Of a stretch of 64,000 nt of DNA, positions 41,608 through 64,000 are shown piece after piece. Where the stretch lies: positions 1 through 64,000 of the forward strand of contig CALXEH010000004.1 in assembly GCA_944387285.1 (NCBI GenBank), in the 5' to 3' direction. The notes beneath the pieces were generated by a model that was given only the letters and a program-made list of their open reading frames with translations, did not search any database and was not told where the DNA came from. Source of the stretch: an uncultured Oscillospiraceae bacterium. GTDB lineage: Bacteria; Bacillota; Clostridia; Oscillospirales; Oscillospiraceae. Position numbers and translations under genes: made by a program. Numbering within the stretch: position 1 is the stretch's first letter; every line of letters starts with the position of its first letter.

Positions 41608-43734
41608 TTATGAATACACAATGGCGATACACCCGTTGGGCAGGGTGCCCGGCGCAGAGCTTACGAGCTGGATGCCTCGCGCACGAATGGTGGTATAATC
41701 CGTACCGGAGAGGTTGGCGGTTTTCTGGACAAAGTTGCTGCCGTCAATGGATATTGTGCCGCCCGAGCCCGTGACATCAACACCGCCCGTACCTTGCAGT
41801 GTCACAGCATTCTGTCCGTTGATTGTGGCGTTGGCTCCGGCGGGGCCAGTCGCACCGGTCGGCCCGGTCGGGCCTGCCACAGTGCTCGGCGCGCCGGTCG
41901 GCCCGGTGGGGCCAGTTGCACCTGTTGCGCCGGTTGCGCCGGCGGTTCCAGCCGGGCCAGTGGGGCCCGTTGGGCCGGTGGGGCCAGCTACGGTGCTCGC
42001 CGCGCCTGTCGGCCCTGTCGGTCCTGTCGGCCCGGTTGGACCCGTTGAGCCAACAGCTCCGGTAGGGCCGGTAGCGCCGGTTGCGCCAACAGGGCCGGGA
42101 ACGACAGAATCAGCTCCGGCGGGGCCAGTCGCACCGGTCGGCCCGGTCGGGCCTGCCACAGTGCTCGGCGCGCCGGTCGGCCCGGTGGGGCCAGTTGCAC
42201 CTGTTGCGCCGGTTGCGCCGGCGGTTCCAGCCGGGCCAGTGGGGCCCGTGGCTCCGGTAGCACCCGAAGCGCCGGTAGGGCCCGCGGCTCCTGAAGCACC
42301 GGTAGCACCGGTAGCTCCAGTCGGGCCTGTGGGACCGGTGGGACCAGTGGGGCCAGGATCACCAGGTGCACCGTTCGAGCCGGACGCACCTGTTGGGCCA
42401 GTGGGGCCCGTGGCTCCGGTAGCACCCGAAGCGCCAGCAGGCCCCGTTGGACCTGTGGGCCCGGCATCGCCGGGGGTGCCGTTCGCGCCCGCTGGGCCTG
42501 TAGGGCCTGTTGGACCTTGTCCTCCAGATGCGCCAGTCGGTCCGGTGGCCCCGGTCGCACCTACGGCACCCGCCGCTCCAGTCGGGCCGGTGGGCCCAGC
42601 AGCTCCTGTTGGGCCAGTAATACCCGGCGCGCCCTGCAATTTGCCCTGATTGTCCCATTGCGGCAATCCGTTTTTTATAATCCAAGAATACAGATCGTAA
42701 GGTGGGTTCTCGCCGACATAGTACATATCGCCAAGGTTGGGCGATGTCACCGCAGCTTCCAGCTGTTCGAATGTATCATACTGCTGCTTGACCTGAATTC
42801 CTTTGCCTTGCGGGCCCGTAGGGCCGGTTGCGCCAGTAGGTCCAGGGGCACCTGTGGGACCCGTAGGACCTGTGGAACCGGCAGGGCCGGGAACGATTGA
42901 CGGTGCGCCTGTTGCACCAGTTGGCCCAGTAGGGCCGGTAGCGCCCGTTGCGCCCGTAGGCCCCGTCGCGCCAGAAGCTCCGGTAGGGCCCTTAGTTCCG
43001 GTTGGCCCTGTGGGGCCTGTGCTGCCCATGGGGCCCGTTGGGCCAGTGGGGCCTTGCCTTCCAGACGCTCCGGTCGGGCCAGTAGGCCCAGTCGCACCTG
43101 CTGCACCAGTAGCTCCAGGAGAACCCGCAGCTCCAGCAACGCCTGTGGGGCCCGTTGGGCCAGTGGGCCCTGCAGGTCCGCCGGAAGGGCCTGTGGGGCC
43201 TGTAGGGCCCGGCACGCCTGCCGCAAGCACGCCTGTGTCTATATACAAATCTTTGTCGGCGTCCCATGTCAGCCAGGTCTGTTTGGCCGATATCATAGGT
43301 TGATGTATAGCGGCGCTTTCTGCGCGGTCAGCCGCTGCCTCCGCCCGATTTGCATTATCGCCGGATATGGAAACCCAGTCAGGCGCAGGAGCTGGAGGCG
43401 CAGAGCCTGGTCCACCGAGAGCCCGGCAGGTCACGGTGTTGATGATTTCCGACTTACGTATAACATCTTCGAGGTACAGGCGCACCTCTAACATGCCGGT
43501 GCCGGGCACGGCCAGGTCTGCGCTGTTTGGACGCCACACGGTGATTGGGTCCGTGGAATTCACGATTACCGGATACACCTGTCCGTCTGGCCTGCGGAAC
43601 ACCACCGACACAGTGGAGCCAGGAAGTTCTGCGAGCCAGGCGGACACGTCAATGTCCAGTTCTCGGTATTTATTCTCTCCCGTGCGGCCTATCTCTACAT
43701 AACCCAATGGCGGGTTGCATATGTTGATAATCAA
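41608..43734 (-). CDS. Collagen-like tail fibre protein
   Basis: A 708-residue protein. Residues 1-170 are a globular BppU-like N-terminal region ([20 protein letters not shown]), the probable tail attachment. From about residue 176 to 660 it is Gly-X-Y repeat, dominated by [10 protein letters not shown], interrupted near the middle by about 65 residues of non-collagen sequence ([20 protein letters not shown]). It ends in a small globular cap. Such repeats form triple helices and give a long trimeric fibre. Threonine in the GPT triplets is the O-glycosylation site in spore BclA proteins; a glycosyltransferase gene is nearby. Confidence 0.88.
41834..42249. repeat. 137-bp exact direct repeat inside the collagen-like gene
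   Basis: Bases 41834-41970 recur without change at 42113-42249 (offset 279, a multiple of three). The unit encodes GPTG/GATG triplets plus APSTVAG. The identity at DNA level suggests recent duplication or recombination within the repeat tract. Confidence 0.9.
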
Positions 43735-52128: not shown

Positions 52129-53526
52129 TTAGTTAGCGGCGTCCGTGGCGAATGTTACGGTCTTCGTCGGCGCCGTTTTCGCATAGTTGAGCAGCACAAA
52201 GGCCTCGCCGCGCACAGGCTTGCCGTCATATCGCTGGGTGCCCTTAAATACCGTGCAGTCATCCAGGAACATGGGTATGTCAGAGTATGCAATCTTCGCA
52301 CCGCTCCGCTCGGCTACAACCTCCAGCGTCAGATATCCGCCTGCAATGTCGTTGTCCGCCATGAACTCGAGTTCCACGATTTCTCCGCCTATAACCGGCA
52401 TGACATTGGAAACACCGGACATAAGCGCTGCGGAGCTATTGAACTCAAGGCAGCGGCAAATGAGGTCCATATGAGTCTTTCTGTTCATGACCCACACAGG
52501 GGCACCAGTTGCGTAGTTAGGCTTCGCGGTTCCCAGAGCAGCCAGTAGAGGCGAGAAAAACTCCTTGCCGGTGCTTGCCGCCAGGTCAAGAGTCAGAATA
52601 TTGGAGGTTGACAGGTTTGTAAAAGTCCCCTGGTTTTTGCCCCACCATGCAGGCTGCGTAGCGGCGGCCAGTCGTGTGACAAAGCCCACGGGCATTTTTG
52701 TGCCGGTGCCATACACGATTGCCTTATCAAGTGCAAGACCTATAGCCTGCCCAAGATAGTCAATGATTGTGGCCAGAAGCTGGAGATCCGAGTCATCCTC
52801 AAGGCTGCTGTTAGGCACGGACACATAGCCGCCAACTTTGTATTCATCCAGTTCTACCTGTGTAAAGGTTATGGTGAGCTCATTGACAGCACCAACCGCC
52901 TCCGTCCATATCCCTTCCGGGATTGCTCCGGCAACGTTTTGACGTCCTTTCCCGGATATCGGGCGAAGCGTAACAAACCTAATCAGCTTTGAATAGCGAT
53001 CAACTCCGTCGCGCAGCACGCCCATCAGAATGTCGGGAACACCGAGCTCGGCGCCGGTCACGGAGGATGCAGCGCGGCGAAAGCCGCGGACACGAGTCAG
53101 GAACTCTTTTACGTCCTCTCGGGTAACAAGCGCCGTGCGCTGTTCAAGGGTCTCGCCCAGGGCACGTATCGCCCTGGTGTTGGTCGATATATTCGCCACA
53201 GAATCACTCCTTTTCTTCACATCTGCGCCGGGCGCGGCGCTTCTTGCGGCCGTGCCGGCTGCTTCGATTTCCGCAATCTGTCTCTCCAGCTCGGCGATCT
53301 CGCCTGATATGCGGGTCTGCTCGCTCGTGTTGGTTTCCCGCGTCTGCTCGAATTCACTTACAAGCGTTTCCACGACTTCGCGCTCCTCATCAGTGGCGGC
53401 CTCGTTTATCGCCTGTTCAAGCTCCGCCTCGCGAGCCTCGAAGCTGGATGCGGCGGTACGCAGCTGCTCCAGCTCGGCCTGCAGGGGCTCGATCCTCTTG
53501 CGGAGAACGAGTACTTTAAGTGCCAT
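52129..53526 (-). CDS. HK97-fold major capsid protein with N-terminal scaffold domain
   Basis: A 465-residue capsid precursor. Residues 1-130 are a charged coiled coil (LQAELEQLRTAASSFEAREA; ISGEIAELERQIAEIEAAG), the delta/scaffold domain removed by the prohead protease. The rest has the HK97-fold core: AIPEGIWTEAVGAVNELTIT, VGGYVSVPNSSLEDDSDLQL, LDKAIVYGTGTKMPVGF, VWVMNRKTHMDLI and DDCTVFKGTQRYDGKPVRGE. Protease and portal genes follow upstream in the standard order. Confidence 0.93.
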   Translation of the reverse strand: MALKVLVLRKRIEPLQAELEQLRTAASSFEAREAELEQAINEAATDEEREVVETLVSEFEQTRETNTSEQTRISGEIAELERQIAEIEAAGTAARSAAPGADVKKRSDSVANISTNTRAIRALGETLEQRTALVTREDVKEFLTRVRGFRRAASSVTGAELGVPDILMGVLRDGVDRYSKLIRFVTLRPISGKGRQNVAGAIPEGIWTEAVGAVNELTITFTQVELDEYKVGGYVSVPNSSLEDDSDLQLLATIIDYLGQAIGLALDKAIVYGTGTKMPVGFVTRLAAATQPAWWGKNQGTFTNLSTSNILTLDLAASTGKEFFSPLLAALGTAKPNYATGAPVWVMNRKTHMDLICRCLEFNSSAALMSGVSNVMPVIGGEIVELEFMADNDIAGGYLTLEVVAERSGAKIAYSDIPMFLDDCTVFKGTQRYDGKPVRGEAFVLLNYAKTAPTKTVTFATDAAN

Positions 53527-54109
53527 TGCTACCTCCTAATCTTCGTCTCATTTCAGCGCGCCAAAGCTCCAGGCGGCGCCGGTTGATGGTCTCCAGGTCC
53601 CTGCGCCTGGCTTCTATGCCAGTGTCCTCATACGCCGGGAACGTGCAGGGGCTGACCTCGTAGAGAGGGCTGATCTTCTCTATCTCCCAGCGGCATTTGC
53701 CGTCACCCAGCTCGATAAACCGCTCGGACTCAATTTCAAATCCAATCGAACACTGGCTCACGTCTCCGCGCTTAACGCGGGCATAGAGGTCCATCGCCGC
53801 TCGGTCTTCCTGATTGATGGTTATGCGCCCCCACAGGCCTCTGGAGTCTTGCTTCAAGGTCATAGTGCCGGCGTGGGTGCGACCAAGGACGAGGTCTGTA
53901 TTGTGGTTTACCAGCGCTCGCACGTCACCGGACACAGATTCGTCAAAAGCGCCGGGCAGTATAATCTCCGTTGCACCCGGCCAAAACTCGTAAGGGCTGT
54001 TGAAAACGGCAAAGTATCCCTCGATATAGAGTTCAACTCCCTCCTCGCGCGTGGAATACTCGACCGGCAGGCAGCGGCGTTCCATGTTAGTTCTATTGGC
54101 TGCGGGCAT
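53516..54109 (-). CDS. HK97-family prohead protease
   Basis: A 197-residue serine protease of family U35/S78. VELYIEGYFAVFNSPYEFW and VRALVNHNTDLVLGRTHAGT contain the catalytic His, and DVSQCSIGFEIESERFIE the catalytic Ser (SIGF). ATG 54109 follows GGAGG by six bases. It cleaves the capsid scaffold domain and overlaps the capsid start by 11 bases. Confidence 0.92.
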   Translation of the reverse strand: MPAANRTNMERRCLPVEYSTREEGVELYIEGYFAVFNSPYEFWPGATEIILPGAFDESVSGDVRALVNHNTDLVLGRTHAGTMTLKQDSRGLWGRITINQEDRAAMDLYARVKRGDVSQCSIGFEIESERFIELGDGKCRWEIEKISPLYEVSPCTFPAYEDTGIEARRRDLETINRRRLELWRAEMRRRLGGSNGT

Positions 54110-54110
54110 A

Positions 54111-55292
54111 TCAGTCCTCCGCACTTTGCAGCTTTTTCTGATTGCCGATCATGCCGGCGGGGATATAGTTCTCCAGGATAACGCGCTCATCCAGGCCGGG
54201 CTCCGGCGGCAGGTCAAGCCAGTCGCGGACCTCATTGCCCGTCATTATGCCGCGGACATACTGGTCGTCGCCGACCGAGGCCAGTGTCTTGAGGTCGTAG
54301 GCGTAAAGTCTGCGGGTGTTGAACTTCCAGTACCAGCGCTCGGAGATCAGGAGCTTCTTTGTAAGCTCCTGTGCGATGCCGTTCGCTATCGGCTGGGCCG
54401 TCGTGCGGATAAAGTTGTTGTACGCCGCCTCGCTGTACTCCCCCACGCCGAGGAAATACGGCGGTACCCGTATTGCAGCCGCGACGCAGCGCTTGTCCAT
54501 CTCCACGCTGGACGATATCGCAATGTCGGCCAGGGACAGCGGTTTGACCGTGACAACGTCCATGAGCTCTGCGGGGATCATCCAGGGCTCGCCGGCGCGC
54601 TGCGTCTGTATGTACTCATGCATCAGCTTCTCGCGGCCAGACGGATCTCTTAGTTCCTCGGAATTGGAGTCCACCTTGATGATCACGCTCGGCATCCACT
54701 TTGAGGACATAAAGGCGTTTGTGGTCGCCGCGGCCTGACGCAGATTCTTAAGCACCTCGCGCAGCTGCACACGCGGGCCTCTGCCCCGCCACGGCGCAGC
54801 CGGATCCGGATGCAGCCGGAAGTGCAGCACATCATCAGGCGCAAACATCTGGCCGCGCCATTGGATGGAATAGCTCAGGCCGTTGTCCTGCGGCAGCGTC
54901 GTCGCGCCCGGCATGGGCAGCAGCTCCTCTATCCGACCGTTATGGGAATCAGGAAGAACGAAGGCATTGCCATCCCCGGATGTGAACATCGTGGTCACGA
55001 TCCAGCTGACCCAGGCCTGGCGTGTCCCCAGACTGTACGGAGTGATATCGATCATGCGCGACAGCTCGTTTTTGAGCCGCTTGTCGCCCTCGTCGGTGTT
55101 CTCCATGAGCCATATTGTGGCGTCGGATATGATATCGGCCACCATGCCGACGGCATTGGCAACGTCCGGCGAGTCGATGAGCCTCGAATATCCGGGTACA
55201 GTGAGGTCCGCGTCTGTGTCGGCCAGCGTTATCCATCGCGCCCCGGTCGACAGCGGGGCATCCCGCGAGCGCGGGACCGGCTTAACTCGCAA
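54111..55292 (-). CDS. Phage portal protein
   Basis: A 393-residue HK97-type portal. MVADIISDATIWLMENTDEG, DVLHFRLHPDPAAPW, LREVLKNLRQAAATTNAFMS, VPPYFLGVGEYSEAAYNNFI and NEVRDWLDLPPEPGLDE match the family. It makes the dodecameric ring at the capsid vertex that binds terminase. The start is TTG 55292 with GGAGG eight bases upstream and directly follows the terminase stop. Confidence 0.93.
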   Translation of the reverse strand: MRVKPVPRSRDAPLSTGARWITLADTDADLTVPGYSRLIDSPDVANAVGMVADIISDATIWLMENTDEGDKRLKNELSRMIDITPYSLGTRQAWVSWIVTTMFTSGDGNAFVLPDSHNGRIEELLPMPGATTLPQDNGLSYSIQWRGQMFAPDDVLHFRLHPDPAAPWRGRGPRVQLREVLKNLRQAAATTNAFMSSKWMPSVIIKVDSNSEELRDPSGREKLMHEYIQTQRAGEPWMIPAELMDVVTVKPLSLADIAISSSVEMDKRCVAAAIRVPPYFLGVGEYSEAAYNNFIRTTAQPIANGIAQELTKKLLISERWYWKFNTRRLYAYDLKTLASVGDDQYVRGIMTGNEVRDWLDLPPEPGLDERVILENYIPAGMIGNQKKLQSAED

Positions 55293-57416
55293 TCAATCAC
55301 CCTCCTTCTGAGCGCCGAACCAGCCGGCGCCTTTCTTTTTGGCTTCGAGATCTATGAGATAGGTGCAGGCTGCGAACACTGCGCAGTCGAACACGTCTAT
55401 GCGCAGATTCGGAGCCAGCTTGTCGTAATACGTCACGTCATCAGCCTTGTCGACGCCGTGGACGTTCTGGACGCAGTATTCAAATGGCTCAGCGTGGCAG
55501 TAATACAGCGTGCCGGCCTTGGCAGAGTTCATGAGATAGTGAAACCCCTCATTTTTGAGAAGAGCCGTCTGCGGCTGGTCCCTGACGGTAAAGTGCGCTG
55601 CCTTCATGCCGACGAAGTACTCGCGGCAGAATTTACGGTCATGTCCCACCCGGCGCACTTTGAAGCCGCGCGTGCGCATGTCCGTGAACCACCGGACCAC
55701 ATCGGCGTGGTTTGTGACCTTGTCGTTTGTCATGTCCAGCCAGCGGTCATCGAGCCAGCCGAACAGAGGTATCTGGTCCTGCTCTGCCTTTACGAGCGCA
55801 GCCGGACGCGGGAACCAGCAGTGTGGGACGATGATATCCACGCCCTGGTAGTGGCCGAACAGGCACGCTGCGGTGAGGTCATGCAGCTTTGAGAGGTCGG
55901 CGCCTCCGTACCACTCGACCGGCAGCCTGGCAAGCTGGTCAAGCGTCCAGTCATACTTGGCGTCAGACGCCCGCCACTCCTCGATGTCGAAATACGCACG
56001 CAGCGACTGGATAAAGACATTGAGGCTCTTGGTCAGGAACTCCGGTCTCATCTGGGGATCCTCGCGGGCAAGCTGCGCGTCGGCGATCATGTCCGCCGGG
56101 CGGATGCTCGCGCCCCAGCCCGGATTACAGGCCTGCATGACAGCCGGGTCATCATAGTCTACTTCGCCGTTCGCGCCCTGCTCGGCCGCGGCTATGAATA
56201 CGAAGGTGCGGTCAGCTATGTCCCCGGTCACGGTGCCGTCGAGGATCTTCCGGCAGAAGTCCACGCGCTGCGCACAGAAGCCGAGCTCCAGCGAGCCTGC
56301 AGTCGAGATGCCGATGACGAGCTTGTTGGAGTACGCCTTGGTCGCGTCCTTGAGCACCTGGTACTGCTTGGCGCTTTTGTAGGTATGCATCTCGTCGGCG
56401 ATGATGACGTTGGCGTTGAACGAGTCCTGGCGGTCGGGCGACGTAGCCAGGGCATTGATAGAGATATACCCGTCCCCGACATCGCCCGATATGCTGTGCT
56501 CATTGTTGCTGCCTATGATCCGCAGCCCGTTGTCGGGGTCCTCGTCTACGGATATGCCGAGACGCTTCACGTTGAATTTGAGGAAGTCAAAGCCCTCCAG
56601 GGCCTGCTTCAGCGCGCCACCGACCTCATACACCTTTGAGCCCGACATCCGGTAATAGAGGGCAAAGGCCCAGGCCAGTGCCGCGGCGAAGGTGGTTTTG
56701 ACATTTTTTCTTGGCACAAATATCAGGGCCTCAACATATCGCCGCAGCTGTGTGCCCGGCTGATAAAAGCCCATGATGTTGTAAACGCAGAACTTGTGAT
56801 ACGGCAGCAGCTCGAAGGGGCGTCCGCGCATGGGCAAGCCCTCGAGGTCCTCGCCCTGCTGGTGGCAGATTGTCGTCTCAATGAGCGCGATTATCAGGTT
56901 GGCCTCTTCCGCCCGGAAGTCCCAGTGCCCCGTGTCCAAATCGGACACATATCTGGCGCAGGCCTGGCGGATCTCTGTGCAGGCGGGGACTTCGCCGGAC
57001 AGGACGCCCTCAACATAGGCGTCGACGGCCGCCTGGTAGTCTGCCGCTTTGGCAATCGCCGTTTCCCTGGCCGTATCCAGCAGCGCCTCTATGGGGCTTC
57101 CCGACGAGGTATTTGCTTCAACAGCGCTTCTGGCCTTTTTCAGCCCCGCGGGAGTCAGGCCCAGCTGAGTGCGCAATGCCAGGACATCCGCACGCAGCTT
57201 CTCGACGGCCGACCAGTACGGGTCTTTCGCCATGTACTCGGCTCCGGCCTTGTTGGTCATGCGAGCCACCATCTGGCCGCCCTGCTTGCGCCATTCCTTT
57301 TCCGCTCTGGAGAGCTGGCGTTCAGTCTTGGCCAGGGCCTTGATGGTCGGCTCATATATCTCGTTGTAGGTGTCCACGGCGCGCATGGCGTCGCGGATCA
57401 TGTCCTCTCTGGCCAA
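55293..57416 (-). CDS. Terminase, P27-like small subunit fused to large subunit
   Basis: A 707-residue protein, longer than usual TerL (550-600). Residues 1-100 look like a P27-family small subunit: TYNEIYEPTIKALAKTERQL and KDPYWSAVEKLRADVLALRT with QLGLTPAG. The rest is a Terminase_1-type large subunit: PYHKFCVYNIMGFYQPGTQL, Walker A-like VPRKNVKTT (residues 234-242, where the family has PRKNGKS/T), Walker B ANVIIADEMHTY (Asp341, Glu342) and a C-terminal RNase H-like nuclease with YGGADLSKLHDLTA. No separate small subunit gene is present upstream. It packages DNA into the prohead. Confidence 0.88.
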   Translation of the reverse strand: MAREDMIRDAMRAVDTYNEIYEPTIKALAKTERQLSRAEKEWRKQGGQMVARMTNKAGAEYMAKDPYWSAVEKLRADVLALRTQLGLTPAGLKKARSAVEANTSSGSPIEALLDTARETAIAKAADYQAAVDAYVEGVLSGEVPACTEIRQACARYVSDLDTGHWDFRAEEANLIIALIETTICHQQGEDLEGLPMRGRPFELLPYHKFCVYNIMGFYQPGTQLRRYVEALIFVPRKNVKTTFAAALAWAFALYYRMSGSKVYEVGGALKQALEGFDFLKFNVKRLGISVDEDPDNGLRIIGSNNEHSISGDVGDGYISINALATSPDRQDSFNANVIIADEMHTYKSAKQYQVLKDATKAYSNKLVIGISTAGSLELGFCAQRVDFCRKILDGTVTGDIADRTFVFIAAAEQGANGEVDYDDPAVMQACNPGWGASIRPADMIADAQLAREDPQMRPEFLTKSLNVFIQSLRAYFDIEEWRASDAKYDWTLDQLARLPVEWYGGADLSKLHDLTAACLFGHYQGVDIIVPHCWFPRPAALVKAEQDQIPLFGWLDDRWLDMTNDKVTNHADVVRWFTDMRTRGFKVRRVGHDRKFCREYFVGMKAAHFTVRDQPQTALLKNEGFHYLMNSAKAGTLYYCHAEPFEYCVQNVHGVDKADDVTYYDKLAPNLRIDVFDCAVFAACTYLIDLEAKKKGAGWFGAQKEGD

Positions 57417-57584
57417 TTCACCGCCTCCGGCTCATTCACGCAGGCGCGTCGTTCACGGGCGCTGTCCGCGCGCGAATTCTTGTTTCCGTTTCTCCTGAGC
57501 CCCGAATTCTACCCCCCCTCGATTTTTTTGCCCGCTGTCGGAAGAAGTCCCGGCCCCAGTGATCAAGGGCAAAGATTTTCAGCC
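57417..57584. other. Non-coding gap between HNH and terminase genes; candidate cos region
   Basis: 168 bases with C- and T-rich tracts (CCCCCCC near 57510 and T7 near 57525) and GAATTC copies, but no convincing gene. In cos phages with an HNH gene beside terminase, the packaging site lies close to these genes. No symmetry specific to a cos site was proved. Confidence 0.3.
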
Positions 57585-57869
57585 TCAGGGGGGTGGGGGG
57601 ATAGTCCGGCGGCGCCATGACTCGCCGAGCGCCGAGAGACTGCCGTCGTCGTTATGCATCGCGCGGTGCGCCTCAGCCGACAGGCTCAGGAGGTTCCAGT
57701 CAGCCCAGGCATATTCTGGCCAATCCTCGGCCGGCCAGATGTGGTGAACAACAGTAGCCTCAACGTTGCGCCCATAGCGCCGCGCCTCGCGGCAGCGGTA
57801 TCCATCACGGCGCAAGATGCGCGGTCTGACATAGACACGCCATCGTCGGCTCTCGTATCCGTCCCACAT
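57585..57869 (-). CDS. HNH endonuclease
   Basis: A 94-residue HNH nuclease: ATVVHHIWPAEDWPEYAWAD supplies the first His pair and WNLLSLSAEAHRAMHN the Asn and final His. Zinc-finger cysteines usual in some relatives are missing (a single Cys). ATG 57869 has GGAGG eight bases upstream. HNH proteins next to terminase are required for specific cos cleavage in HK97-like phages, the likely role here. Confidence 0.85.
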   Translation of the reverse strand: MWDGYESRRWRVYVRPRILRRDGYRCREARRYGRNVEATVVHHIWPAEDWPEYAWADWNLLSLSAEAHRAMHNDDGSLSALGESWRRRTIPPPP

Positions 57870-57926
57870 CCAGAACACCTCCCGGCGGCAAACAAAAAAG
57901 CGCCTGCCTCCGACACATAGTCGAAG

Positions 57927-58205: not shown

Positions 58206-58967
58206 CTATTCGATTTTTCGGCGTCTGCGAGCAGGCTCTGGCCGCGGCTCGGGCAGCAGATACGATATATATGTGTAGCAGCCGTATCCGTTCTGCCGCT
58301 CGTCTCGATCCAGGATTACGGCTCCCGGCGGCGCTGTGATAGTCACATTGTCGTCAACCAGCTGCGACTCCCGCACAGGCTTGGCAAGGTTGCGTGAACC
58401 GACATAACCCTTGTCACCGACTGCAATTACCTTTGAATCAGCGTCCGGGTTGCGCTCTCGTACCATGTACTGCGCGATCTCCATGAAATCATCGCGGCCA
58501 TAGTGCTCGCTGTCCGAGAGCTGGGAAATCTCTATATTGTCGCCCCACTCCCAAAGTGAGCGAATCAGCTCATAGTCCGCCCGGCCGGACGTGGCGTTGA
58601 TGATCAAGTGGAAATGATACCGCCTGGATCCGTCGTCCTGAAGCTCATGTATCGCATAAACGTAGCGCAGCTCCTCCCCATCCGCACGCCGCCGAGCCCG
58701 CAGCCGGTCCATGAATCGGGCCATGATCTTCTTGCAGGCCTTACGGTTTGGAGGTAGGTGATCGGCATCAAAGCCGAGGGTGATCCACAGGTCGTGCCTT
58801 TTGAAATTGGCACAGAGCAACAGCTGCAGCTGCTTCCACATCGCTTTGAAGTTCAGCTTCTGTCTGGCCGCGCTGCTGCACTTGGCTTTCTCTGCACGCT
58901 CTCTTGGAGAGTCCGCCGCCATGGCCTGGGTATAGCACACGCCGTACACGAGCCGACCGGCTGTCAC
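58206..58967 (-). CDS. HUH replication-initiator-like protein (rolling-circle Rep)
   Basis: A 253-residue protein from GTG 58967. It has the HUH metal motif YHFHLII (His118, His120), the preceding strand motif DLWITLGFDADHLP, and candidate catalytic tyrosines Tyr156 (EHYGRDD) and Tyr167 (AQYMVRE). This is the Rep layout of single-strand nicking enzymes. Protein-like sequence continues upstream of the GTG (AKTKRLIT) to an ATA codon at 58994 placed eight bases after GGGGGG, so the real start may be AUA. It overlaps the upstream gene if so. It probably nicks the phage origin. Confidence 0.8.
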   Translation of the reverse strand: MTAGRLVYGVCYTQAMAADSPRERAEKAKCSSAARQKLNFKAMWKQLQLLLCANFKRHDLWITLGFDADHLPPNRKACKKIMARFMDRLRARRRADGEELRYVYAIHELQDDGSRRYHFHLIINATSGRADYELIRSLWEWGDNIEISQLSDSEHYGRDDFMEIAQYMVRERNPDADSKVIAVGDKGYVGSRNLAKPVRESQLVDDNVTITAPPGAVILDRDERQNGYGCYTYISYLLPEPRPEPARRRRKIE

Positions 58968-60751: not shown

Positions 60752-62245
60752 TCAGCTCTCGCACCATTCTGGCAGGTTTGCGCGCACGAGGGCCTCTGCG
60801 AAGGGCGGCGGCACGGCGTTGCCGCAGCGGGCGATCTGCTTAGACTTCGGATATTCCCGCCCAGTGTAGTCACGGTCGATTATGTAGTCGTCCGGGAAGC
60901 CGTTGGCGCGATACAGCTCCCTCGGTATCAGCATGCGCAGGCCAATATCGGCTATGAAATACCACGCGCCGCCAAGCTCAAGCAGCAGCACCTCGTCATC
61001 CGCCAGCGCGTACCCGCAGTAAATATTGAGCAGTCCGCGAATCTTCGGCCAGTTGTGCAGTTCTACGCCCGGCTCCGCTTTCCGCACCTCTGTCGTGACC
61101 ACGCCATGATGACCTCCGCCCGCGGTGATGGTCTGCACCGGCTCGGAGACCGCCGCGCCTAGGTTTGTGCCCTTCATCTTGACCAGGCTTGCAAGCGTCA
61201 GGCCTGCGCGGTCTCGCGCTGTAACGGTACGCAGAGGGGCCTTCGCGTTCTGCCCATGCCTCTCAGCGCCGTAATATGCAGTCAGCGATGCCGCCGCCAG
61301 CCCGTAACGGTTGGCGGCGTCTATTGTCATCAGTGGCTCTGTCACGTTCTGCCCCCGGACATGCTCGTGCCGCTCAGTGTGGTACTGGATGATATAAGGC
61401 CGGCAGCCTCCACGTTCCCCAGGCCGTTCCGCAGCATGCACGACATACGGTGCCGACGACCTAATCACAAACTTGTCCACGCCGCGGATGACACGCCGCA
61501 TGGTGTTTGGGCTGAGTGGTCGCTGTGCGGTGAGGCCGTACTTATCACGCACTTCCTTCCGCGTGTCAAAGATGGACGGGCATGGCAGCGACCAGTCGAT
61601 GATTTCCGCCGCGCTCCTCCACGGCTTTCTCAGCCCCGCCTTCGCCTCCGGGCTGTCAGCCGGCGCGTGGGTAGGCTCCGGCCACGCGATGGGCCGCCCG
61701 TCGCAGCGGGCAATGAGGAAAAACCTCTTGCGCGTGGTTGGCGCGCCATAGTCCGCGGCTACCAGCTCGCGCCACTCGACGTCATACCCCAAGTCCCGGA
61801 GCTGCCCCAGCCATTTCGTGAAGGTCTGTCCTGCCTTTGATTTTACCGGTCGCCCCCTGCGCACCGGCCCCCAGGTCTGGAACTCCTCCACGTTCTCCAG
61901 GATGATCACCCGCGGCCGCACCGTTCCCGCCCAGCGCAGGACGATCCAGGCGAGGCCCCTGATATGCTTGTCCACGGGCTTCCCGCCCTTGGCTTTGGAG
62001 AAATGCTTGCAATCCGGGGAGGCCCACAGCAGGCCCACCGGCCTGCCGGCGCAGACCTCCACGGGGTCAACATCCCACACGCTGGCCTGAATGTGCTCAG
62101 TGTGCGGGTGATTCGTCTTGTGCATGAGTATCGCGTCCGGGTCGTGGTTGATAGCGATATCGACCGGCCGCCCAGTTGCCAGCTCAATGCCCGTAGACGC
62201 TCCGCCGCCTCCAGCGAAGCTGTCTACTATGAGTTCATCCGGCAT
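60752..62245 (-). CDS. DNA (cytosine-5-)-methyltransferase
   Basis: A 497-residue C5 methyltransferase. Motif I is VDSFAGGGGASTGIELA (SAM site). Motif IV is LLWASPDCKHFSKAKGGKPV with the catalytic Cys in PDC rather than the usual PPC. Motif VI is IILENVEEF, motif VIII-like ADYGAPTTRKRFFLIARC, and the end GNAVPPPFAEALV is motif X. The long middle (about residues 215-400) is the target-recognition region. No cognate restriction enzyme gene is beside it, so it is probably an orphan phage enzyme for protection or regulation. Confidence 0.9.
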   Translation of the reverse strand: MPDELIVDSFAGGGGASTGIELATGRPVDIAINHDPDAILMHKTNHPHTEHIQASVWDVDPVEVCAGRPVGLLWASPDCKHFSKAKGGKPVDKHIRGLAWIVLRWAGTVRPRVIILENVEEFQTWGPVRRGRPVKSKAGQTFTKWLGQLRDLGYDVEWRELVAADYGAPTTRKRFFLIARCDGRPIAWPEPTHAPADSPEAKAGLRKPWRSAAEIIDWSLPCPSIFDTRKEVRDKYGLTAQRPLSPNTMRRVIRGVDKFVIRSSAPYVVHAAERPGERGGCRPYIIQYHTERHEHVRGQNVTEPLMTIDAANRYGLAAASLTAYYGAERHGQNAKAPLRTVTARDRAGLTLASLVKMKGTNLGAAVSEPVQTITAGGGHHGVVTTEVRKAEPGVELHNWPKIRGLLNIYCGYALADDEVLLLELGGAWYFIADIGLRMLIPRELYRANGFPDDYIIDRDYTGREYPKSKQIARCGNAVPPPFAEALVRANLPEWCES

Positions 62246-63015: not shown

Positions 63016-64000
63016 TCAAGTCTTTGCATCTGCCCACTTACAGCTTGCACAATCTGTCGGCACCCGTCCCAGCAGCGCATTTACGCAGAGGCCGGTCATC
63101 TCTGAAAGGGCCAGCATATCTTCAAGGTCGCAGAATTCTTCAGGAGACCATATATGTCCGTCACTATTTGGCTGCCAAGATACAAAGCATCGTATATCTT
63201 CCTCGGACTCCCAAAGGGTATCGGCGACCTCACTAATTGAGACGCCTGCCTCAGAGCATACATCAACGAGATGTCGCCACCGAGCAGAAAACTCTTTTTG
63301 GCCGTCTATAAGGCAGTCAGGCCTTTCATCTGCTTCCGGCTCCTCGCTGGGGCTTGTTTTTGCATGGCTTTGACCTAAAGAAGCGTCCGCTTCCCTGCTA
63401 AGCTCAGACGCGATAGCAGCCACAGATTGTGCAGTAGGCGTCCCTTTAGCCTTGCTTCTGACCTTTGCCTGCTGCTCCTGAGGCAGCCGTGCAAGTTCAT
63501 ACGCCGCCGACTCGGAGAGGCTGCCGGTCTCGAATGCTTCCATCCACTCCGAGGAGAGGTTCTTGCGTATAACATCCAGCCGCGCCAGGCGAGATGCCGA
63601 TATCTGCATAGCCTCGGCCACGGCGTCACGCAGCCGACCGGGGATCTCCACACCCTGACTTTTCAGCTCGGCAAGCAGCTCTCTGTAGCGCCCCGCCTGG
63701 CGCATCGTGTCCGCCGACGACATGACCCTTGTCGCGCGGTTGGCCTCGATCAGCAGCAGCTCCTCCAGGATATCTGAGGCGGGCTCCCTGATAATGGCCG
63801 GCACTCGGGCCCAGCGCTCCGGCTCGTCCTTCGCCAGCTCACAAATTGCAAGGAACCGACGGTGTCCGGATATTATGCGGTAGTCTCCGCTGCCGTCGCG
63901 CACCGGCCTAACAATTATCGGCTCAATGAGGCCGTTGAGTGCAATGCTGTCCGCGAGCTCGTCTGTGTTGCTCGTATCATAAAAGTTTTTCTCATTCAGC
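63016..64000 (-). CDS. ParB/Spo0J-like N-terminal domain protein, partial (5' end outside window)
   Basis: The frame stays open past the right edge, so the true start is outside; 327 residues are visible. DELADSIALNGLIEPIIVRP and GDYRIISGHRRFLAICELA form the ParB/sulfiredoxin-like nucleotide-binding fold with GHRR. A helix-turn-helix-like region follows (ISASRLARLDVIRKNLSSEW; LSESAAYELARLPQEQQAKV), as in chromosomal ParB. The C-terminus has a cysteine pair (CASCKWADAKT). It is likely a DNA-binding or plasmid-like partition protein of the phage early region. Confidence 0.82.
   Translation of the reverse strand, partial: LNEKNFYDTSNTDELADSIALNGLIEPIIVRPVRDGSGDYRIISGHRRFLAICELAKDEPERWARVPAIIREPASDILEELLLIEANRATRVMSSADTMRQAGRYRELLAELKSQGVEIPGRLRDAVAEAMQISASRLARLDVIRKNLSSEWMEAFETGSLSESAAYELARLPQEQQAKVRSKAKGTPTAQSVAAIASELSREADASLGQSHAKTSPSEEPEADERPDCLIDGQKEFSARWRHLVDVCSEAGVSISEVADTLWESEEDIRCFVSWQPNSDGHIWSPEEFCDLEDMLALSEMTGLCVNALLGRVPTDCASCKWADAKT

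Follow-up and report, generated by a model that had tools for sequence, protein, structure and literature searches.

In phage HK97, whose terminase is among the closest known systems, the small and large subunits are separate proteins (TerS gp1 and TerL gp2; 6Z6E/8POP, 6Z6D). HK97 TerS forms a nonamer through which DNA is threaded; it lacks a well-defined DNA-binding domain, and the packaging site is recognised by terminal segments of two neighbouring protomers (PMC11331095). The HK97 motor contains up to five TerL, the second lysine of the TerL Walker A motif (Lys237 in the protein described here) is essential, and the cos packaging set includes an HNH protein, gp74 (PMC9410871). In P22, TerL residues 1-58 bind TerS (PMC9611059). 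The stoichiometry of TerS and TerL before packaging has been called unclear (PMC9410871), and the TerS:TerL ratios that have been reported vary (PMC9611059). How the numbers of the two subunits are matched and how DNA is handed over is thus an open question, and a natural fusion of TerS to TerL would fix the ratio.

Such a fusion is encoded in the window, that is, the whole 64,000-nucleotide stretch of DNA that was analysed. TerS and TerL are not separate subunits here; both lie in one 707-aa ORF that begins with TTG and has no internal stops (Table 1). The chain begins with a short but complete P27 TerS, which a variable linker of 20-30 residues connects in frame to a complete TerL. The TTG start recurs at the aligned place in two fused relatives (L001 and L008). 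A start-codon scan found no in-frame ATG, GTG or TTG between residues 85 and 156 of the window ORF, and no conserved internal start at the TerS/TerL junction of the fused proteins. Head genes follow downstream, together with genes for tail completion, major tail and tape measure proteins, and an HNH endonuclease gene adjoins the terminase upstream. The element is an HK97-like siphovirus prophage of a gut bacterium and probably uses cos-type packaging. Upstream of the HNH and terminase genes lies a gene for a rolling-circle type replication initiation protein, to which the product of positions 4405-5184 of L002 is similar by eye. The early region of the prophage also encodes a C5 cytosine methyltransferase and a ParB-like protein, and downstream of the tail genes is a 708-aa protein with many collagen-type repeats that is likely a tail fibre.

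Table 1. Features of the fused terminase gene and of the surrounding prophage in the window.
Feature	Position	Strand	Basis
Fused terminase gene (707 aa)	57416..55293	-	
Shine-Dalgarno-like GGAGG 5' of the TTG start	57424..57428	-	sequence
TerS domain (P27/phrog_361-type), residues 1-104	57105..57416	-	Pfam/PHROGs matches, AlphaFold models
Variable linker, residues ~105-125	57042..57104	-	alignment, dN/dS, start-codon scan, lower pLDDT
TerL ATPase and nuclease domains, residues 126-707 and stop	55293..57041	-	phrog_9, PF03354, HK97 TerL 6Z6D
His207, Q-motif (adenine-binding) position	56796..56798	-	covariation with residue 239
Walker A PRKNVKTT, residues 235-242 (Val239 codon 56700-56702)	56691..56714	-	alignment
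Walker B, residues 338-342 (VIIADE region)	56391..56405	-	Asp341, Glu342 invariant
Nuclease acidic residues Asp507, Asp593, Asp677	55386..55898	-	invariant in two alignments
Portal	54111-55292	-	PHROGs
Head maturation protease	53516-54124	-	PHROGs
Major capsid protein	52129-53526	-	PHROGs
HNH endonuclease	57585..57878	-	phrog_119 9e-16
Rolling-circle type replication initiation protein	58206-58967	-	PF23343, phrog_3584
C5 cytosine methyltransferase	60752-62245	-	
ParB-like protein	63016-63903	-	
708-aa protein with collagen-type repeats	41608-43734	-	

The N-terminal region of the fused protein matches PF05119 (Terminase_4) over residues 9-97, with E-values of 2.3e-10 when the fragment is searched and 4.9e-9 when the whole protein is; in each case the gathering score is exceeded. 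This match covers model positions 10-93 of 98 and reaches 41.2 bits against a curated score of 24.7. Additionally, phrog_361 (terminase small subunit) matches residues 6-101 (1.3e-20), and NCBIfam TIGR01558 (P27) gives a weak match below its cut-off. The separate TerS proteins of the same type in Geobacillus phage GBSV1 and the phiRg phages are 118-120 aa long, and the N-terminal domain of the fused protein is therefore full length for this short type of TerS. AlphaFold models place a single short helix (residues 3-13) ahead of two core helices (19-44 and 66-85) that flank a beta hairpin (50-64), with a further helix at 89-104. The TerS part was modelled alone from a clean alignment; the full-length alignment had rows of separate TerS scattered over TerL. 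The model of the TerS part alone has a pLDDT of 95.5; the other model has lower values at residues 91-110. The closest structure to the TerS part is HK97 TerS (Z 7.3 over 76-79 residues, in a range below about 13 that is unsafe for helical folds), Foldseek gave an E-value of 0.3, and no PDB relative of the TerS sequence profile was found.

The remainder of the protein is a TerL with its catalytic residues intact. The phrog_9 TerL profile matches residues 117-696 (7e-101), PF03354 exceeds its cut-off, and PF20441 falls just short of its 24-bit cut-off at 23.7 bits. HK97 TerL (6Z6D) matches this part both by profile (E 3.8e-19) and by fold (E 2.8e-25). An alignment of 50 diverse TerLs shows no variation at Arg236, Lys237, Lys240, Asp341, Glu342 or the nuclease acids.

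Scans of viral contigs and Oscillospiraceae genomes yielded 13 further distinct fused proteins (L001, L002, L003, L007, L008, L009, L010, L025, L026, L043, L056, L058 and L215), which with the window make 14; L197 and L216 come from the same contig as L009 and were not counted apart. All fused relatives with names are from Oscillospiraceae. Fused relatives share 59-67% identity over full length, and the fused proteins form one clade (support 99.9) in a tree of 211 TerLs. One member of this clade, L016, is truncated by a contig edge within the linker and carries an in-frame stop in that region, possibly through an error, through decay or as a natural split. Both the TerS and the TerL part are under purifying selection, with a dN/dS of 0.14 for the TerL part and a median of 0.25 for the TerS part (0.06-0.14 where the closest pairs give a finite dS). 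The fastest-changing part is the linker (dN/dS about 0.50 for residues 97-125).

Fusion of TerS to TerL is rare. In a sample of 394 genomes from the order, a long open frame was found at 2 of the 64 PF05119 places (the window and G306), and in a phylum sample of 398 genomes at one of 72 (the window). With the TerS part as query, 2 of 13 places in the family sample were fused, and the phylum sample held no fused place besides the window. Among the matches listed from 50,697 phage records, the only near-full-length relatives were those of the phiRg phages; no fused homologue was seen in annotated phages, the full-length matches listed being phiRg two-gene pairs. Searches of open-access papers turned up no description of TerS and TerL being fused in nature.

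The genome from which the window derives is 85.5% complete. PF05119 and PF03354 each match it once, in both cases within the fused ORF, and PF03592 (Terminase_2) does not match it at all. Likewise, no second TerS-like ORF was seen in any fused locus. Because of the incompleteness of the genome, a TerS of an unlike family may lie elsewhere in the host. Together these results bear out the earlier note, which proposed a natural small-large terminase fusion from the window sequence. Its assignment of the N-terminal 100 or so residues to a P27-type small subunit agrees with PF05119 and phrog_361 matches over most of the domain. Its statement that no separate terS exists now extends beyond the window to the whole-genome profile search, in which the fused ORF is the sole P27-type gene. 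The count of related fused proteins for which it called stands at at least 14 distinct elements, in which the TerS domain is conserved.

We therefore favour, with a probability of roughly 0.75, a single-chain terminase that works and is inherited vertically in Oscillospiraceae prophages of the HK97-like and probably cos type, taken jointly with the account of the Walker A motif given below. The gene itself forces TerS and TerL into a fixed 1:1 ratio, and it is a reasonable inference, as the earlier note suggested, that the stoichiometry differs from the usual TerS ring plus TerL pentamer. In such a terminase the TerS part would recognise the packaging site and carry the attached TerL part to the DNA and then to the portal. 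P22 TerL binds TerS through its N terminus; since this is the end of TerL that the fusion links to the C terminus of TerS, a normally transient contact may have been made permanent, at a ratio of 1:1. The TerS parts might ring up in the number of the TerL chains (five on the portal); alternatively, they might assemble differently at initiation, or only some of them might act at a time. The TerL pentamer need not suffer from an added domain at the N terminus, since HK97 TerL with GFP at its N terminus packages DNA unimpaired (PMC9410871).

The properties of the linker bear on a different explanation, in which the fusion is a precursor that a protease, either that of head maturation or one of the host, cuts into separate TerS and TerL to give the usual ring and pentamer. 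Rapid change and lower model confidence would suit a cleavable linker, and the head protease gene lies two genes downstream of the terminase. However, the linker alignment shows no conserved cleavage motif, and a cut chain would still yield TerS and TerL in equal amounts. We regard cleavage as unlikely.

It is quite unlikely, too, that the N-terminal domain is what is left of a decayed TerS, serving only as a structural extension of TerL, with DNA recognised by another protein such as the HNH protein. The TerS proteins of lambda and SF6 do have a helix-turn-helix before the core where the window protein has its one short helix. However, the unfused TerS proteins of the same family in GBSV1 and phiRg are equally short, HK97 TerS also manages with terminal segments in place of a well-defined DNA-binding domain, and the TerS part is under purifying selection.

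The second feature of the window protein is Val239, which stands where a glycine before the Walker A lysine would be expected. The earlier note held that relatives have Gly at this position, which is true of most sampled TerLs outside the Val/Ile third but not of the nearest relatives: the other 13 fused proteins all read PRKNIKTT. In a sample of 99 TerLs, drawn through the nuclease motif and hence blind to Walker A, the residue is Gly in 64, Val in 17, Ile in 15 and Ser in 3. Among 211 distinct TerLs, 126 (the window included) lack Gly, with Ser, Ala, Thr, Asn, Tyr and Phe as further residues; the Walker A glycine is therefore not family-defining for HK97-type TerL.

A column scan of the 99 TerLs identified residue 207 as a perfect partner of this change, with His in all 32 Val/Ile proteins and in none of the 64 Gly proteins. 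The context of this residue, LLPYH207KF, aligns with the Q-motif glutamine of HK97 (LDPFQKDF). The pairing had no exception among 146 TerLs, whose tree requires 8 changes at each site taken singly and no more than 8 when the two are counted jointly. In the set of 211, 108 TerLs have His with Val/Ile, 2 have Val/Ile with another residue at 207, 5 have His with another residue at 239 (Thr, Asn or Ala, never Gly) and 96 have neither. Thus His is found in 108 of the 110 Val/Ile TerLs and in 5 of the 101 others, and Gln or Glu occurs mostly with Gly. Across 11 well-supported independent pairs, 7-9 change at both sites and none runs counter to this (sign test, median p 0.004). A mutual-information scan ranks the 207-239 pair 463 of 126,253; position 239 is the best partner of 207, and for 239 position 433 comes first and 207 second. 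The case for coupling is therefore made by the counts and by the paired changes on the tree. Thr/Ser at 242 was also considered as a partner of Val/Ile (31/32 versus 15/64), but with 3 independent pairs it was not significant.

The supposed link between the fusion and the altered Walker A motif was rejected. Trees of 146 and then 211 TerLs place Val/Ile in many unfused lineages, nearly always with the change from Gln to His in the Q motif, and so the two, which the earlier note had listed together, are not parts of one oddity. We suggest that the 207/239 switch reflects a repacked ATP pocket. The Val in Walker A would then belong to one of two states of this switch, Gln paired with Gly or His paired with Val/Ile, and would be compatible with activity and apart from the fusion, a reading covered by the joint probability given above. 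The Walker A change is real yet ordinary for this TerL family; its coupling with the Q motif was less to be expected, and no description of such a paired switch was found in the literature searched. A distant TerL lineage (L173, L174, L186 and L175) has Walker A motifs reading RGNYKS, RGNFKS or RGNVKS and retains the Q-motif Gln, and Gly has thus also been lost without a His partner. Three other TerLs (L078, L079 and L092) are interrupted in Walker A, precisely between Lys and Thr, by insertions of some 360-370 aa that start with Ala and end with HN; that of L079 contains homing endonuclease domains. These appear to be P-loop inteins and occur in both Gly- and Ile-form TerLs.

The residue before the Walker lysine is usually Gly in P-loops, and Val239 could on that ground mark an ATPase-dead or slow motor, but this is very improbable with Val/Ile in 32 of 99 sampled TerLs and in many separate lineages, catalytic residues unchanged, and a partner change at residue 207 that argues for a repacked pocket and not decay. 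The stronger combined claim, namely an uncut natural single-chain terminase at a fixed 1:1 ratio together with a separate, repeatedly arisen Gln to His/Gly to Val/Ile switch that makes the Walker A glycine dispensable, we consider about evenly balanced. If the terminase does stay uncut at 1:1, the TerS ring may share its subunit number with the TerL motor. The natural fusion also offers a single stable polypeptide for structural work and packaging assays, and the Q-motif/Walker A switch is a testable claim on which features of the P-loop are truly required in a packaging motor.

Compared with known systems, the window terminase shares with HK97 the TerL fold and sequence profile, the Walker A arrangement R-K-N-x-K-T, an HNH protein in the packaging set and the type of head genes. 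HK97 differs in its separate TerS and TerL, its nonameric TerS ring, the Q-motif Gln and the Walker A Gly (ARKNGKT). Deviant Walker A motifs in large terminases are an established theme (Mitchell and Rao 2004, as cited in PMC5727402). The closest named TerLs, those of GBSV1 and Exiguobacterium phage vB_EauS-123 (50-51% identity), lie in the same gene order as in the window, HNH-TerS-TerL-portal-protease, but TerS has a gene of its own (118 aa in GBSV1) and Walker A reads RKNGKT with PWQ. In the Ruminococcus gnavus phages phiRg (MT980836-41), TerS and TerL are in the same frame and the TerS TAA is followed at once by the TerL ATG, so that loss of one stop would fuse them. These phages make two proteins, with PRKQGKT as Walker A, and belong to another TerL branch; they are therefore an analogue of the pre-fusion layout and not its ancestor. 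The fusion in the window is confirmed and looks functional, a novel form of a familiar packaging machine.
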